Assembly (NCBI RefSeq): GCF_000328665.1
Contig: NC_019977.1
Location: forward strand, 2,162,011 to 2,226,010
Source of the DNA: Methanomethylovorans hollandica DSM 15978
GTDB taxonomy: Archaea; Halobacteriota; Methanosarcinia; Methanosarcinales; Methanosarcinaceae
Direction: 5' to 3'
DNA: 64,000 nucleotides
A model generated the notes under the pieces. That model was not told the origin of the DNA. It saw nothing but the letters and a program-made list of their open reading frames with translations, and searched no databases. Position numbers and translations under genes: made by a program. How positions within the stretch are numbered: position 1 is the stretch's first letter; each line of letters starts with the position of its first letter. Shown here one piece after another: positions 8,808 to 40,151 of this stretch.

Positions 8808-9395
8808 TTAATCCTTATGCATGCCAGCTATTATTAGAAAGTTTTCGACGATTTTCATCCCGCTTTCAGTAAGCACGGATTCCGGATGGAACTGCACACC
8901 GTATATAGGATACTTCGTGTGTTCCACTGCCATGATAATGCCATCAGGTGTCCTTGCAGTCACCTCAAGTTCATCCGCCAGCTTTTCAATGGCAAGGGAA
9001 TGGTATCTTCCTCCTTTGAAGGTGAGTGGTATACCAGCAAATAGACGTGAGCCATCATGGCTGATGTCAGATGTCTTGCCGTGGATCGGACCGCCTTTTG
9101 CATGTCCGACACTGCCTCCGAAAGCTGCATTGATGGCCTGGTGACCAAAACACACACCTAGCACAGGGATATGGGGACCAAGATCCCTTATGATACCAAG
9201 ACAGTTGCCCACATCTCCAGCCTTGTGAGCTGTGCCCGGCCCAGGCGATATCACGATGGCATCCGGCTTTATCTTCCGTACTTCTTCTGAAGAGACGGTA
9301 TTTGGAACGACCACTGTGTCCGGCTCGAATATGGATACATAGTCCACAAGGTTCCAGACAAAAGAATCCTTGTTATTGATGAACAATACCCTCAT
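8808..9395 (-). CDS. trpG: Anthranilate synthase component II (glutamine amidotransferase)
   Basis: A class I glutamine amidotransferase of 195 residues supplying ammonia to TrpE. The oxyanion segment SPGPGTAHKAG, the nucleophile Cys82 in GVCFGHQ and the catalytic His-Glu in GVQFHPESVLTE are all present. Its ATG overlaps the trpE stop by one base (TAATG), which implies coupling. It could also serve 4-amino-4-deoxychorismate synthesis (PabA), but the operon argues for tryptophan. Confidence 0.94.
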   Translation of the reverse strand: MRVLFINNKDSFVWNLVDYVSIFEPDTVVVPNTVSSEEVRKIKPDAIVISPGPGTAHKAGDVGNCLGIIRDLGPHIPVLGVCFGHQAINAAFGGSVGHAKGGPIHGKTSDISHDGSRLFAGIPLTFKGGRYHSLAIEKLADELEVTARTPDGIIMAVEHTKYPIYGVQFHPESVLTESGMKIVENFLIIAGMHKD

Positions 9396-10972
9396 TATTT
9401 TCCCCCGATGGCTTTTATCATTGCGGCCATTTTCCGTTCGGTTTCCAGGTATTCGTATGTCGGATCTGAATCTGCCACAATACCTGCTCCGGCCTGCACA
9501 TAGGCAGTATTGTTCCTGATCAGGACCGTCCTGATGACTATGGCAAAGTCGGCATCACCATTCCAGGAATAATAACCCACGCCACCACCGTATATGCCTC
9601 TTGCATTGGGCTCCAGGTCATCGATGATCTCCATTGCGCGTATCTTGGGTGCACCGGATAGCGTACCTGCCGGGAAGATGGCGCGTGTGGCATCGAACTG
9701 ATCACATTCATCCCTCAGTTCTCCACTTACAGTACTCTCTATATGCTGAAGATGAGAATATTTTACCACGCTCATGAGGTCATCTACCTTGACTGTTCCG
9801 CCTTTTGAGACCATCCTCACATCATTGCGTCCTAAGTCTACGAGCATGATATGTTCTGCCCTTTCCTTCTCATCTTTAAGCATGTGAGAGGCAAGTTCTT
9901 TGTCCTCGCCCTCATCCTTGCCCCGGGGGCATGTCCCTGCAATAGGATTGGTGATGACCTTCCTGTCGTAGACCGTCATGAGGGTCTCAGGGCTTGCACC
10001 CACGATACCGATATCCTTGAAATTGAAAATATACATGTAAGGGCTTGGGTTTATGTCCCTGAGCCTTATGTACAGTTGCAGGGGGGTCTGGCTAATTTTG
10101 ACAGTGTACCTGCGTGAAAGCACTACCTGGAAGATATCGCCGTCAATGATGTGCTGCTTTGCAGCCAGCACTGCTTTTTCAAAGGTTTCCTGATCAGTGC
10201 CTGGAACCGGTTCTTCTGACTTTACCTTTGCCAGGATATCGGAACTGATGCCTATCACTGAAGACATGTGCAGTGAGCGCTCCATGAGCTGCGCATCTGC
10301 TAAAGCGTGTTCGTATACTGCTTCAAGATCACTTTCCTTTGTAACGAACGGAGTGATGACCAGATATGTTTCATTGGTTATATGATCAAAGACAAAAGTC
10401 TTGGTCATTATGGCAAAATGCATCTCAGGTGTGTCAGCATCCGGCTTTTTCTCCCTGTCGATCCAGGAATCATAAACCAGTTCATAACCGTTGTAACCGA
10501 TAGCCCCCCCAAGGAACGTTTGCCTGTCAAAACGTTTCTGATTAAGCATCTCAACATTGTTGCTTGTAGGGAACACCTCACGGAAGGCAGTAAAATCATC
10601 ATCCTGTTCCTTTAACTGTACCCGGAACCTGCCTCCTATAAGCGATTCAGTAGTCCCCATTGCTTTTACTTTATCATAGATGAACTTTGAAAGCTCGGAA
10701 TTCTTCTGGCAATCGATGGTAAGGTACCTGTCCTTTATACCTACCACGATCTCTGGTTCAGAACCCACAAAAGAGTATCTTGCATGCCTTTTTTCCTTTT
10801 CCACTGATTCAAGAAGATATGAATAATTTGCGTTCTGCAAGGTCGCATACAGTTGCAGGGGAGTGCATATGCTGTCCACCTTAGCCATTAGCTGTACGAT
10901 GGCGGGTGTCTTTGAGCGTTCAACAAGAGCAATAAAATTATCTTTATTAAGATCGAACTCAACCATTTGCAC
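9395..10972 (-). CDS. trpE: Anthranilate synthase component I
   Basis: A 525-residue chorismate-using enzyme that makes anthranilate from chorismate and ammonia. The N-terminal tryptophan feedback motif LLES (in NYSYLLESVEKEKR) is kept, so product inhibition is expected. The C-terminal catalytic core has the family blocks AGTCPRGKDEGED, DLGRNDVRMV, STVSGELRD, PAGTLSGAPKIRAMEIID and QAGAGIVADSDP. It overlaps trpF by 14 bases. An alternative ATG lies two codons in. Confidence 0.95.
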   Translation of the reverse strand: MQMVEFDLNKDNFIALVERSKTPAIVQLMAKVDSICTPLQLYATLQNANYSYLLESVEKEKRHARYSFVGSEPEIVVGIKDRYLTIDCQKNSELSKFIYDKVKAMGTTESLIGGRFRVQLKEQDDDFTAFREVFPTSNNVEMLNQKRFDRQTFLGGAIGYNGYELVYDSWIDREKKPDADTPEMHFAIMTKTFVFDHITNETYLVITPFVTKESDLEAVYEHALADAQLMERSLHMSSVIGISSDILAKVKSEEPVPGTDQETFEKAVLAAKQHIIDGDIFQVVLSRRYTVKISQTPLQLYIRLRDINPSPYMYIFNFKDIGIVGASPETLMTVYDRKVITNPIAGTCPRGKDEGEDKELASHMLKDEKERAEHIMLVDLGRNDVRMVSKGGTVKVDDLMSVVKYSHLQHIESTVSGELRDECDQFDATRAIFPAGTLSGAPKIRAMEIIDDLEPNARGIYGGGVGYYSWNGDADFAIVIRTVLIRNNTAYVQAGAGIVADSDPTYEYLETERKMAAMIKAIGGK

Positions 10973-11645
10973 ACCTTATCTGTGAAATGAACCTGCGCAC
11001 TTTATCAGGGTCCTTCTTTCCATTTTTCTCAACTCCGGATGCAACATCCACTGCATAGGGCCTTACTTCTTCCACTGCCTGGCGTACATTTTCTGGATCC
11101 AGGCCGCCTGCCAGCATCACTGGAGCTTCAAGCATTTCCACGATCTGCCTGCTTACGGACCAGTCATGCACAGCGCCGGTCCCACCCACGATACCGGCTT
11201 TGCTGGAGTCAAGCAGTACGCCATCTATAAGATCATTCTCGAATCTCTCTTCTATTGTAGCTATTGCAGGACCCATCTCTTCCAGAATGTTATGTGTGTC
11301 AACAGGTATGGCAAATGTTTTGATGATCTTCTGCCGGACATTATCTCTTACATATTCAAGATCTGAAAGTAAGAGGTCGCTATGCAGCTGGACGATGTCT
11401 GGCTTGCATATGTCAATAAGTTCCACAGCTTCCTCCCCGTTCTCCGGCATGATCACAAGCACAGAATCCACGAACAACGGCACCTGTTCTATAAGGGCAG
11501 ATGCGGATGCAGCGTCGAGCCTTCTGGGACTAGGTACTGGCACTTCCGTTACAAACCCCACAGCATCAGCTCCAAACTTCACGGCCATTGCTATGTCTTC
11601 AGCACACCGCATACCGCAGATCTTCGCCCTTATAGGAAATTGCAT
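10959..11645 (-). CDS. trpF: Phosphoribosylanthranilate isomerase
   Basis: A (beta/alpha)8-barrel enzyme of 228 residues for the third step of tryptophan synthesis. The catalytic cysteine is in KICGMRC at the N-terminus and the general acid aspartate in LLDSSKAG. The phosphate-binding loops are at APVMLAGGLDPENV and VDVASGVEKNGKKD. The start lies 47 bases inside the 3' end of trpD. The overlap is unusually long, but the next internal Met would remove the catalytic KIC segment. Confidence 0.93.
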   Translation of the reverse strand: MQFPIRAKICGMRCAEDIAMAVKFGADAVGFVTEVPVPSPRRLDAASASALIEQVPLFVDSVLVIMPENGEEAVELIDICKPDIVQLHSDLLLSDLEYVRDNVRQKIIKTFAIPVDTHNILEEMGPAIATIEERFENDLIDGVLLDSSKAGIVGGTGAVHDWSVSRQIVEMLEAPVMLAGGLDPENVRQAVEEVRPYAVDVASGVEKNGKKDPDKVRRFISQIRCANG

Positions 11646-12657
11646 ATTCTATGCCCTCAAAGGTCTTGTCGCTGAACTGTCTGAGCTTTCCCATGGCCCT
11701 GCCTGAATCAATGACTTCCTCGACCATGGGTATAGCTTCCTTCAAAGAGTCCGCAGCACCTGCAACATAGAGTGTGGCTGCAGCATTTATGACAATAAGA
11801 TCTCTTTTAGGTCCCTTTTCCCCTTTGAAAATGTAGATTATATCCTTTGCGTTCTCTGCAGGCGTGCCGCCTACGATATCTGTAGCCTTTGCTCTCTTGA
11901 TGCCCAGGTCTTCAGGAGAGATCGTATATGTCCTGATCTTGCCATCTTTAAGCTCTGCAACCTTGGTCTCTGAGATATTGGAGATCTCGTCCATGCCGTC
12001 CCCATGTACGATCATAGCCCGCTTTGCACCCATTTTCTTAAGCACCTGTGCAAAGACCTCACAGAGGCCGGGGTCGTATACGCCTATGAGCTGTGCATCA
12101 GCACTTGCCGGATTTGTAAGAGGACCCAGGATATTGAAAATCGTCCTTACACCCATTTCCTTCCTTATGCCTGTAACTCTTTTCATTGCAGGATAGAATA
12201 CAGGCGCAAGCATGAATCCGATGCCTATATTTTCAATCGATTCTTTCACATGTTCAGGATCTTTATCGATCTTTATCCCCAACTGCTCCAGTACATCCGC
12301 ACTGCCGGAAAGAGAAGTGATAGCACGGTTGCCGTGCTTTGCCACATTCACTCCTGCAGCAGAAGCAATGATGGCAGCAGCAGTTGAAACGTTGATGGTC
12401 TTATGTCTGTCAGCGCCTGTTCCCACGACATCCACAAGTGTGCCTTTTACATCAGGGTGTATGCTCCTGGCAGCTTTTTTCATGCCGCATGCGAACCCTG
12501 CGATCTCATCAGCAGTCTCACCTTTCATTTTCAAAGCCATGAGCAATCCGGCTATCTGGGCATCTGTGGCCTGAGTGAATATCTCTGTGATTGCCTTCTC
12601 AGCCTCTTGCAATGTCAGGTTCTCACCTGCACTTACTTTTTGTATGTACGACTGCAT
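11599..12657 (-). CDS. trpD: Anthranilate phosphoribosyltransferase
   Basis: First gene of the trp operon. The 352-residue enzyme couples anthranilate to PRPP. It has the PRPP motif DVVGTGADRHKTINVSTA, the KHGNRAITSLSGSADVLE anthranilate-binding loop, and the hinge region ERNG-like FNILGPLTNPA. The ATG at 12657 is preferred over an in-frame start at 12675: GGTG lies five bases upstream, and the earlier one would fall at or before the expected transcription start. Only trpD, F, E and G are here. trpC, trpB and trpA must lie elsewhere. Confidence 0.93.
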   Translation of the reverse strand: MQSYIQKVSAGENLTLQEAEKAITEIFTQATDAQIAGLLMALKMKGETADEIAGFACGMKKAARSIHPDVKGTLVDVVGTGADRHKTINVSTAAAIIASAAGVNVAKHGNRAITSLSGSADVLEQLGIKIDKDPEHVKESIENIGIGFMLAPVFYPAMKRVTGIRKEMGVRTIFNILGPLTNPASADAQLIGVYDPGLCEVFAQVLKKMGAKRAMIVHGDGMDEISNISETKVAELKDGKIRTYTISPEDLGIKRAKATDIVGGTPAENAKDIIYIFKGEKGPKRDLIVINAAATLYVAGAADSLKEAIPMVEEVIDSGRAMGKLRQFSDKTFEGIEYAISYKGEDLRYAVC

Positions 12658-12670
12658 GATAACACCATTA

Positions 12671-12706
12671 TACACATCAATGTTTTAAATTGTACATTGA
12701 TGTATA
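12671..12706 (-). promoter_or_regulatory. trp operon operator/promoter: 13-bp inverted repeat over a TATA-like box
   Basis: TACACATCAATGT (12671-12683) and ACATTGATGTATA (12694-12706) are inverted repeats matching at 12 of 13 positions. The 10 bases between them read ACAATTTAAA on the minus strand, a good TATA-like element about 30 bases before the trpD ATG. A repressor on this repeat would cover the TATA box. The right arm contains TGTACA, the box used by the TrpY repressor of Methanothermobacter. Regulation by a TrpY-like protein is inferred. Confidence 0.6.
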
Positions 12707-12848
12707 ATTAGGTGATGACATATATACATTGCTGTTGAACAAGAGATGTCTAAAAATATTGAAGATCAAGTGAAATAACATGAATGAGATAGTCCTGAAG
12801 AATACATTATATCTATTGAAACCGAATATATTAATGAGGGAGTTCAAT

Positions 12849-13286
12849 ATGATATACATAGCCATAGATGGGGACGATATTCATCAAAAATTCGAGAAAT
12901 GCTTGCTTGAAAGTGATGAAAAGAACATCGTCAGGACAAGTAAAGAGATAACAAATACTATTGACAGGATCATTGACCATTTGCAGCATGAAAGCCTGAG
13001 AATAGTATTCTCTGCAGGCGATTGCATCTTATGTAAATGCGATGCAGTTGATCTGATAGACCTGTCCAATTACTTGGATAAAATAGGTAATACAAATACT
13101 GTTTCTGTTGGGATCGGAGATACTTTGGAAAAGACGTATATCGCTTTCAAGTATGCCAGATCCATTGGAAAAAACAGTATCGTCAAATACACTTTGAATA
13201 ATAAATTAGAGGTCTTTGATCTGAATACCGTAGTTCCGCATTCATCCTGCTTTGCAGAAGGCCTTACTCCGTGTCTGGTAGAATAA
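12849..13286 (+). CDS. Stand-alone mCpol-like protein (minimal CRISPR polymerase / GGDEF-related)
   Basis: A 145-residue single-domain protein. The N-terminal motif YIAIDGDDI (Asp7, Asp9, Asp10), the second motif IVFSAGDCIL (Gly57-Asp58), and the C-terminal stretch SVGIGDTLEKTYIAFKYARSIGKNSIV match the mCpol family. That family is related to the cyclic-nucleotide-making GGDEF/CRISPR polymerase palm and to GTP cyclohydrolase III. ATG 12849 is chosen over the upstream frame because GGGAG lies six bases before it. mCpol genes normally sit with CARF, 2TM-beta or CRISPR genes. Here the neighbours are trpD and cobQ, and no effector is visible. Nucleotide signalling is inferred. Cys59 stands where many relatives have a second acidic residue. 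Confidence 0.72.
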   Translation: MIYIAIDGDDIHQKFEKCLLESDEKNIVRTSKEITNTIDRIIDHLQHESLRIVFSAGDCILCKCDAVDLIDLSNYLDKIGNTNTVSVGIGDTLEKTYIAFKYARSIGKNSIVKYTLNNKLEVFDLNTVVPHSSCFAEGLTPCLVE

Positions 13287-32261: not shown

Positions 32262-32288
32262 AAAAAAAAAACAAGGCTCTCAGAGCCT
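32262..32288 (-). terminator. Hairpin plus T10 terminator of pheS
   Basis: AGGCTCT (32274-32280) and AGAGCCT (32282-32288) form a perfect 7-bp stem. The minus strand continues with ten T residues (A-run at 32262-32271), so this looks like a bacterial-type intrinsic terminator. The pheS stop codon lies inside the hairpin. Confidence 0.65.
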
Positions 32289-33758
32289 CGGAGAAGGTGT
32301 CTTGCGCAGCCAGTCGATATCGGACTGATATAGCTCACGCAGGTCCTTAAGTTCCAGCTTGAGCATTGCCAAGCGGCTTACTCCCAAACCCCAGGCAAGC
32401 ACGGGGTAATTAATACCAAGAGGATGTGTAACTTCCTTCCTGAACACGCCTGCACCTCCAAGCTCTACCCAGCCAAGTCCTTCAACGTAGACCTCGGGTT
32501 CCACACTGGGTTCAGTATATGGGAAATAACCCGGCCTGAAGCGCACATCCTTGAAACCCATTCTGTGATAGAACTCCGAAAGCAAGCCTAGGAGATGGGC
32601 AAAGGTCATATCCTTGTCCATCACCACACCTTCCAGTTGCTCGAATTCCGGTGTGTGGGTAGGATCAATGGTTTCACGCCTGTATGCCCTGTCAATGGAG
32701 AATGCCTTGATAGGTGGCTTGGGATTATCTGCAAGGTATTTGATAGTCACAGCAGTGGTATGAGTTCTCAGAACATTCTTGCAGGCGATATCCTCGCTCC
32801 ACTTGCCACCCCATCCCTTTGATGCAAGATCTCCTCCATGCTCATGCATGGCACATACCTTGTCTTTGTACTCCTCAGGAAGTTCTGAGGTTTCTTTAAG
32901 GTGGAAGGTATCCTGCATCTCCCTTGCAGGATGGTCCTGGGGCTGGAACAAAGCGTCAAAGTTCCAGAAAGAGCTCTGCACAATATCTCCTTTTATTTCA
33001 GTGAAGCCCATTTCCAGGAAGATCTGGCGCATCTGATCGATAAGGCGCTGGTAAGGATGTACCTTGGCAGCATAAACAGCACGAGGAGGCGTATGAATAT
33101 TATAAGATCTGAAGTTTTTCTCTTTCCATTCTCCACTTTTGAGCATCTCGGAAGTGATCTGGGTGACCTCTTCCTCGATAGTTATGCCCTCAAGCACTAG
33201 TTCCTTACCTGCAGAAGTCAGAACGATGGACCTTAACTTCTCTTCATTTCTGACAACAAGTTTACGTTTAATGAGATCCTGAATAATAGTGTTGTCCACT
33301 CCCAACTGGTCAAGTGCAACTTTTCCACTTCTTAAACTGGCAAGAGCCTTTTCATCATTTCCCACCTCTGCCTTACCTGAAGGGATGACACTTCCCTGTT
33401 CTATATTTGCCCATCCTTTACGGCGGACCCAGCCAGTAGCAATGCCCACGATTTTAGGTGATACTTTCTCCTTGAGCTCTTCCAGAGAAGTAGGACCAGA
33501 CATTGCTGAGATCATTTGTCTCTCAGGAAGACCACACCTCGCATACTCGTCACCCTCCGAGGTAAGGTTATAAGACTCTATGATCTGCTCGGAGACATCA
33601 GCAAGCCCTTTCTCCTGTAGCATAAAAGCAGACTGGGCAACAGTCTCTACCTTAAGTCCGGACATCTGCGCAAGTTCTGTAGGACTCAAATTACCTTGCT
33701 TCCCAAGATCGATCAGAACAATTTTCTCATTAGTAGTAAGATTATACTGGCGGTTCAT
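32280..33758 (-). CDS. pheS: Phenylalanine-tRNA ligase alpha subunit
   Basis: 492 residues. An N-terminal winged-helix region ([25 protein letters not shown]) is followed by the class II synthetase core: motif 2 [12 protein letters not shown]...[22 protein letters not shown], and motif 3 GVEL-like [13 protein letters not shown]...[11 protein letters not shown]. This is the archaeal/eukaryotic form. The beta subunit gene pheT is not in the window. ATG at 33758 is well spaced from AAGGTG. Confidence 0.95.
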
Positions 33759-33788
33759 TGTCACACCTTATGTAAATGATAGTTGAAT

Positions 33789-35087
33789 TCATAAACAGTA
33801 CTCATCAAGCCTTTCCCTTGCAAGTTCTCTTTTCTCCTGGTGTTCCTTCAGGAACTTCTCCATCCTTTCTGCAGCAAGGTTCTTACAACTGCCACAGGTC
33901 CTCTGGCCTGTGACACATGCTTCATGTATCTGTAAAAGTTCCTGGTCATCTTCTAGGAGGTGGAAAAGCAAAAGATCATATACAGAACATTTATCTGGCT
34001 CACCACCCAGTTTTTTTTGCTCTTCAAGGCTAATGCGCCCTCCTGTCTTTGCACGCTTTACTTTTTTTGCACCTTCTCTGGGATCGTCAAGAAGAGCTAT
34101 ATGGCTTTCAGGAATACTGCTTGACATCTTTCCGCCCTGTAGGCCGGACATGAAGCGATGGTAGGTGGATGCAGGCGGTACGAAAGCATATCCCCCATAA
34201 CGCAGTTCAACATCCCTGACAGTCCTTAGCAATTCCTCAAAGTTATCAGCACCAAGAACATCCAGATGACCTTCGAAGAGCTTTGTGTTTCCGGGAATAG
34301 TATCATGCAGTTCCTCCAGTGCCCCCTGGGGAGCTGCTTTACTGCGTATACTAAAATAATGTTGCCCGTCTTTATTTTCTCTGCCCTCTATTTTGAACAT
34401 GTTCATTTTATGGGCAAGTCCCCGGGTAAGACGCATATGAGGGTCCTGGTCAGCGCCTACAGGGATAACAGTTGGCTTTGGACCCCCATGATCCTCAAGT
34501 TGGGGATGAAGAATATCAGCACTTTGAGTTATTGCACTGACCATATGGGAAACGCTTGTTTCCCCTGTGAACCCATAGATGGCACTTAGTTCTGAAAAGT
34601 TTGCCTTTGAGCCAAGCTCAAAAGAAAGGTCTTTCACATTATCCGAAGACGACTGGAAATAAATGTGCCCATGAGGTTCAAAACCAAGAGCTATTAAGCT
34701 TACAATATACTCATTGATGCCCGTATCCCTGCATTTCTCCCACGATATACCCCTTACCGAATGAGCTTCACGATCAGCTATCCCTACAAAAGCGTCTGCA
34801 CCTTTCTGCTGATGCCATATAATTTCCTCCATAACCATCTTATGACCAAGATGTATATGCCCGGAGGGCATGAATCCGCTCATTACAGCAAATGGTTCCT
34901 TATTCTGCATTGCATCAAGCACATACTCATAACTGCGATGGCCGAAGATCACTTTTCTGCGCATTAACCTGTGAGGATTGTCTATGCGAGGATATAGATC
35001 ATCGAACGGCATTATACCAAATTCCTCAAATAATTTGGAATAATCTACGATGTTAGTTGAACTCCATGGATCTATTTTTACATTCAT
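33789..35087 (-). CDS. trpS: Tryptophan-tRNA ligase
   Basis: 432 residues of the archaeal TrpRS type. The HIGH-like motif is [14 protein letters not shown], and the KMSKS-like motif is [13 protein letters not shown]. The C-terminal tail [15 protein letters not shown] has cysteines seen in archaeal relatives. Its upstream region carries an 18-base element nearly the same as in the trp operon promoter. pheS follows 30 bases downstream, so they may be co-transcribed. Confidence 0.94.
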
Positions 35088-35104: not shown

Positions 35105-35122
35105 TGTATATTGATATATCAT
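35105..35122. promoter_or_regulatory. trp-operon-like element upstream of trpS
   Basis: TGTATATTGATATATCAT matches the trp operon arm TGTACATTGATGTATAAT (12691-12708) at 15 of 18 positions. It begins 18 bases upstream of the trpS start, where promoter elements would lie. A common regulator of the trp operon and trpS is suggested, not shown. Confidence 0.45.
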
Positions 35123-35193
35123 GTATGCCGCTGGCTACCTGGCAATAGTAGAAACACGTAGTTATATGTAAATGTTCTTATTGCAGATGGAGA

Positions 35194-39824: not shown

Positions 39825-40151
39825 TTATTTATGAACCACTGAAGGAGGTATTACCTCCACTTCCTGCAGTATCATTAGCTCACGCGGAAGCATCTGGCGC
39901 AGTTTTGGGATTATTGACCGGATCTTATCCTCCGCATCAACTGCCTGCACTATTATGGGCAGGTCTGCACCAAGCCTTAGCACATTTGCCGTATGGATCA
40001 CATGATCCACACCATAACCTGCTATACAATGATGTACAGTTACTCCCGCTATGCCTGCTTTTTTAAAGAATTCGATCACAGCATGATATGCAGCCTTTCC
40101 ACGATACGAATCCTTTTCGCTCAGGTATATCCTAAGGATAACATGCTTCAT
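39825..40151 (-). CDS. DUF190 family protein linked to fluoride export
   Basis: 108 residues with the DUF190 pattern (LRIYLSEKDSYRGKAAYHAVIEFFKKAGIAGVTV) and a PII/CutA-like ferredoxin fold. DUF190 genes commonly lie next to crcB, as here (24 bases), so a role in fluoride response is inferred. Convergent with the CRM protein gene. Confidence 0.85.
   Translation of the reverse strand: MKHVILRIYLSEKDSYRGKAAYHAVIEFFKKAGIAGVTVHHCIAGYGVDHVIHTANVLRLGADLPIIVQAVDAEDKIRSIIPKLRQMLPRELMILQEVEVIPPSVVHK

Follow-up and report, generated by a model that had tools for sequence, protein, structure and literature searches.

Does a methanogen control the synthesis of tryptophan and its charging onto tRNA through one common element? 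The question arises from the window, the whole 64,000-nucleotide stretch of the Methanomethylovorans hollandica DSM 15978 genome analysed here, in which a first-pass annotation had noted similar 18-mers upstream of trpS and of the trpD operon and proposed a regulon joining the two processes. The best explanation of the data is probably a TrpY/TRP-box regulon that comprises trpD-trpF-trpE, trpC-trpB and trpB2, leaves out trpS, and is read by TrpY. The features that bear on this are collected in Table 1.

Table 1. Features of the trpD and trpS loci in the window (position 1 is its first letter).
Feature	Position	Strand	Basis and remarks
TRP-box array of trpD operon	12671..12706	-	Four TGTACA-like boxes; holds the trpD-side 18-mer (12691-12708)
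TATA-like sequence ATGTATATAT of trpD operon	12720..12729	-	Putative, picked out by eye
trpD, anthranilate phosphoribosyltransferase	11599..12657	-	NCBIfam TIGR01245; first gene after the array
trpF, phosphoribosylanthranilate isomerase	10959..11645	-	NCBIfam matches below cut-offs, best NF002298 (E 2.2e-47)
trpE, anthranilate synthase component I	9395..10972	-	NCBIfam TIGR01820, above cut-off
trpS look-alike	35105..35122	.	Judged a chance resemblance; best overlapping matrix score -7.3; unconserved in the genus
trpS, tryptophan--tRNA ligase	33789..35087	-	NCBIfam NF008926 and TIGR00233, above cut-off
pheS, phenylalanine--tRNA ligase alpha subunit	32280..33764	-	NCBIfam NF003210 and TIGR00468, above cut-off
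Conserved trpS(-pheS) promoter block GAACATTTACATA-N5-ACGTGTTTYTAC	35148..35177	-	0 mismatches here

Two similar 18-mers upstream of trpS and trpD

The trpS-side 18-mer, TGTATATTGATATATCAT, is found at 35105-35122 (+), with its first base 18 bp away from the ATG of trpS (35085-35087, minus strand). Its counterpart, TGTACATTGATGTATAAT, is found at 12691-12708 (+), upstream of trpD (ATG 12655-12657, minus strand). The annotation had both positions right, and the two sequences do agree at 15 of 18 positions and differ at three. They are the only two places in the window that match the 18-mer with up to three mismatches (shuffle expectation 0.08-0.15), and for this pair of regions taken on its own 15/18 was reached in 4 of 500 shuffles, which is uncommon. 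The 43 upstream regions in the window, compared with one another, nonetheless yielded six distinct region pairs holding 18-mers that match at 15 or more of 18 positions (13 counted, less six from the same region or overlapping and one counted twice); 40 shuffles gave 6.7 such pairs on average (sd 2.5). Allowing for so many comparisons, the likeness between the trpS and trpD 18-mers is not above chance.

Across the whole genome (2.71 Mb) the trpS 18-mer has 12 matches at up to three mismatches, and its reversed control has four. These 12 are the trpS and trpD sites, six places within ORFs, three away from ORF starts (neither in nor up to 200 bp upstream of an ORF of at least 80 aa) and one (L009) upstream of other genes. 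The annotation had suggested looking for the 18-mer at other trp genes; none of the matches lies at trpC or trpB2, so that the 18-mer itself was ruled out as the signature of a regulon. The half-site pattern ACATTGATGTNTA at up to two mismatches was rejected as unspecific (243/196 matches against 197/170 in the control); TGTACATNNNTGTACA at up to two mismatches, likewise set aside, showed little overall excess (60/56 against 57/48). With one mismatch, TGTACATNNNTGTACA occurs at seven places, trpC, trpB2 and trpD among them.

Phased arrays precede trpD, trpC and trpB2 across the family

The minus strand of the trpD leader carries four boxes in exact 10-bp steps, TATACA-TCAA-TGTACA-ATTT-AAAACA-TTGA-TGTGTA; their first bases lie at 12671, 12681, 12691 and 12701 (plus-strand numbering). 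To follow this arrangement through the family we trained a 26-bp matrix on 30 trpD leaders, all taken from other genera (consensus TATACAttATTGTACA.AatTATACA). The trpD array scores 24.8 with this held-out matrix, the top score in the window; elsewhere in the genome the array of trpC, which is followed downstream by trpB, scores 19.4 and that of trpB2 scores 27.6.

Leaders were drawn from 60 genomes of the family: 50 for trpS, 48 of 55 for trpC, 47 of 58 for trpB2 and 35 of 48 matched for trpD, where two at contig ends, one partial and ten with trpD after trpC in one cluster were left out. The matrix scored above all 40 dinucleotide shuffles in 34/35 trpD, 46/48 trpC and 39/47 trpB2 leaders, and in 0/50 trpS leaders. 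With the cut-off fixed at 14 and 300 bp scored, the counts were 34/35, 41/47, 16/47 and 0/50, respectively; one short trpC leader was left out of this and of the spacing analysis, and the one trpD miss at the cut-offs is G025, a genome with trpD after trpC that was kept in the set. The trpB2 leaders are the weakest at fixed cut-offs, with 30/47 at a score of 10, 16/47 at 14 and 10/47 at 18. Six of the 11 trpB2 leaders that had been left out, from genera g10 and g11, were also scored: five reach at least 12 and one scores -7.5. In genus g11 (six genomes sampled; L377-L382 cover g10 and g11) there is no trpD match and trpC matches are weak or absent, while TrpY is kept and trpB2 has a match in five of the six genomes.

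The phase of the boxes is conserved as well. For box cores paired within 45 bp of each other, the spacing is 10 or 20 bp in 53/75 pairs at trpD and 37/63 at trpC, and spacings of 9 or 11 bp never occur there; at trpB2, 5/9 pairs within the same distance are 10 or 20 bp apart and two are 9 bp apart. The array starts 18-21 bp past a TATA-type hexamer in 16/21 trpD, 31/37 trpC and 4/7 trpB2 cases scored, with no such hexamer in range in 13/34, 4/41 and 9/16 arrays, respectively. On this conservation of sequence, phase and position, we take the trpD element to be a conserved control element.

A gene at 12780-13286 (+), divergent from trpD across the array, encodes a protein with an mCpol (minimal CRISPR polymerase) domain (PF18182, E 7.9e-40). 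The mCpol-domain gene and trpD may have a common intergenic control region.

Searches with an array model

A sequence model, R1, was built from 40 of 81 distinct arrays (set A1), sites of the M. hollandica genome included. Its match at the trpD array spans 12679-12707 with E 1.1e-5 for the window, a value to be read with R1 including the trpD site itself. The top matches in the genome are, in order, trpB2, trpD, C2:1122312 and trpC; since this search scored 150 of 1532 first-look candidates, the lack of a place there is weak evidence, and the search of the window is the better test. The strong match at C2:1122312-1122334 (L266; E 0.005) has no convincing target gene close by and was not retained as a regulon site. 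Within the window, a two-box TRP-like sequence, TGTACATCATTGTATA, occurs at 40023-40038 (-) inside ORF 39825-40151, which adjoins two crcB-like ORFs; as a half-array within an ORF, it was rejected as an operator.

A strict three-box pattern was matched in 15 of 294 genomes of the phylum and in none of the control. These sites precede trpE (four), trpD (three), trpB2 (two) and trpC (one), the genes having been named by eye from their proteins. ADTH synthase opens the pathway to aromatic amino acids in archaea, and a gene resembling it, also named by eye, is preceded by a three-box array in two genomes of genus g9 (G008 and G022; L294 and L295). The remaining sites are found ahead of a lactate-permease-like gene, next to an ABC-type gene and within a tandem repeat.

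TrpY as the candidate regulator

According to the accessible text of PMC6737238, TrpY controls the trp operon (trpEGCFBAD) of Methanothermobacter thermautotrophicus through TRP boxes. The M. hollandica genome encodes a single TrpY_fam protein (G000:C2:1928818-1929306; 235.9 bits against a cut-off of 180), with an HTH-like part and an ACT-like part. Members of TrpY_fam are present in 57/60 genomes of the family, including 44/44 near-complete ones, and in 3/14 control genomes, M. acetivorans among the three. A DRR motif in the HTH-like region is common to all 30 family TrpY proteins read and invariant in eight TrpY proteins of Methanobacteriales.

A further connection between protein and boxes comes from Methanobacteriales, whose genomes were reached via a Methanobrevibacter locus and the trpE leaders of 18 of which were read. 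A divergent TrpY-type gene lies beside trpE in 16 of the 18, and both proteins scanned (n=2) match NCBIfam TrpY_fam. R1 matches the trpE leaders of all 18, with E from 9.2e-6 to 0.02. In one of these genomes (G339; L330), the TrpY encoded divergently from trpE shares 44% identity with the M. hollandica protein.

In the proposed mechanism, TGTACA-like boxes on one helical face, in 10-bp steps, start about 20 bp downstream of the TATA box. Because they begin there, the arrays should cover the transcription start. Arrays of the same kind stand before trpC(-trpB) and trpB2. TrpY, the most likely reader, would together with tryptophan occupy the arrays and block initiation when tryptophan is plentiful, so that tryptophan would be the signal and repression the effect.

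It is unlikely, we think, that the arrays form a real regulon read by a protein other than TrpY. In Thermococcus kodakarensis, TkTrpY is 42% identical to the M. thermautotrophicus TrpY and yet does not control its trp operon, as the accessible part of PMC6737238 has it. The M. hollandica trpY lies apart from those trp genes that were read, and autoregulation was looked for as well: no array was found in 30 trpY leaders (best score -4.2), and the M. hollandica trpY itself is preceded by a degenerate box pair (TCTACATGTGTGTTCA, two mismatches). Together, the behaviour of TkTrpY and the lack of an array before trpY count against a simple transfer of function. Several findings stand against another reader: in Methanobacteriales, boxes of this type and with this 10-bp step lie next to trpY, TrpY is present in every near-complete genome of the family, and its HTH-like region is conserved. 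We regard linkage of trpY to trp genes and boxes of its own as a feature of the M. thermautotrophicus locus, and do not count them as required for the regulon. TrpY is retained as the probable reader.

The trpS leader

The annotation held that one regulator jointly controls synthesis and charging through the common 18-mer, in which case the trpS site would be a weak TRP box, or one that this species gained recently. The 15/18 identity, the sole such match in the window, and the rarity of this pair in shuffles speak for this reading, and under the trpD matrix the trpS site ranks 38th among the minus-strand positions of the window. Its score is -7.3, as against 19 to 28 at the trpC, trpD and trpB2 arrays of the same genome, and shuffled versions of that leader attain it (p 0.15). 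Over 300 bp of the trpS leaders, the array matrix exceeds none of three cut-offs in any of the 50, and R1 has no match at the look-alike in the window up to E 10. The look-alike is altered by indels and substitutions in the nearest species, and this part of the leader varies in both length and sequence within the genus. The gene order also speaks against joint control: since pheS follows trpS by 24 bp on the same strand, a tryptophan-specific switch at trpS could also set PheRS alpha. We consider joint control of this kind highly improbable. It is barely credible that both motifs are chance products of AT-rich upstream sequence. Upstream pairs at 15/18 are indeed as numerous in the window as in the average shuffle, but throughout the family the array seen at trpD returns, with its 10-bp phase, at trpD, trpC and trpB2; chance is contradicted for trpD and preferred for trpS.

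The regulon proposed in the annotation is thus borne out in part: a conserved element is found at trpD, at trpC and at trpB2, a trpB homologue, and in none of the 50 trpS leaders. As far as sequence comparison can tell, the idea holds for tryptophan biosynthesis and fails for trpS, which appears to lie outside the TrpY regulon, its match being a chance resemblance in an AT-rich leader.

The trpS leader contains a different conserved stretch, the 30-bp block GAACATTTACATA-N5-ACGTGTTTYTAC, which has no second match in the window at up to three mismatches. A relaxed form is exact in 15/50 trpS leaders from three genera, and the block is kept across genera while the remaining leader drifts. Variants were seen by eye in further genera. 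It seems doubtful that this trpS-pheS block is more than a core promoter, namely an undescribed control element of its own where a regulator of the charging enzymes would act separately from the TrpY regulon. In genera g12 and g8, the trpS leaders (L193, L200, L202, L203, L207) show GC-rich stretches resembling inverted repeats a short way ahead of the start codon, as judged by eye.

Relation to known systems and implications

The TRP box of M. thermautotrophicus has the sequence TGTACA, and trpB2 is also under TrpY control in that organism. The arrangement described here resembles that system in its TrpY_fam regulator, its TGTACA-like boxes at 10-bp steps and its trp gene targets, and searching with the family's array model recovers the Methanobacteriales trpY-trpE region. 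It differs in that M. thermautotrophicus has a common trpY-trpE region, whereas here trpY is unlinked and without an array of its own, and in that the trp genes are distributed over several units, all of which have an array. The system would thus work like TrpY/TRP-box control as regards regulator and boxes, to which TrpY is predicted to bind, and unlike it as regards linkage and autoregulation of trpY.

In bacteria, tryptophan regulons with trpS among their members operate through RNA, by T-box and attenuation; the idea of joint control over synthesis and charging is alike, but no common element is present at trpS here. Within the euryarchaea, the accessible text of PMC6737238 also describes Tar (TK0271) of T. 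kodakarensis, an activator of aromatic amino acid operons. Tar is comparable in that trp and other aromatic genes are controlled in a euryarchaeon, and unlike TrpY in being a different protein and an activator (PMC6737238, accessible part). The literature searched, with thin coverage of subscription journals, contained no paper on TRP boxes in Methanosarcinales.

Synthesis and charging are apparently not under joint control via the TRP-box element. From the 10-bp phase one would expect several TrpY units to bind next to each other along a single face of the DNA. The operators can be named exactly, as can their targets: trpD, trpC, trpB2 and, in one genus, perhaps an enzyme at the entry of the aromatic pathway. 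Genetic tools exist for Methanosarcina. If the proposal is true, archaeal tryptophan control would reach beyond one model methanogen into the family to which Methanosarcina belongs.
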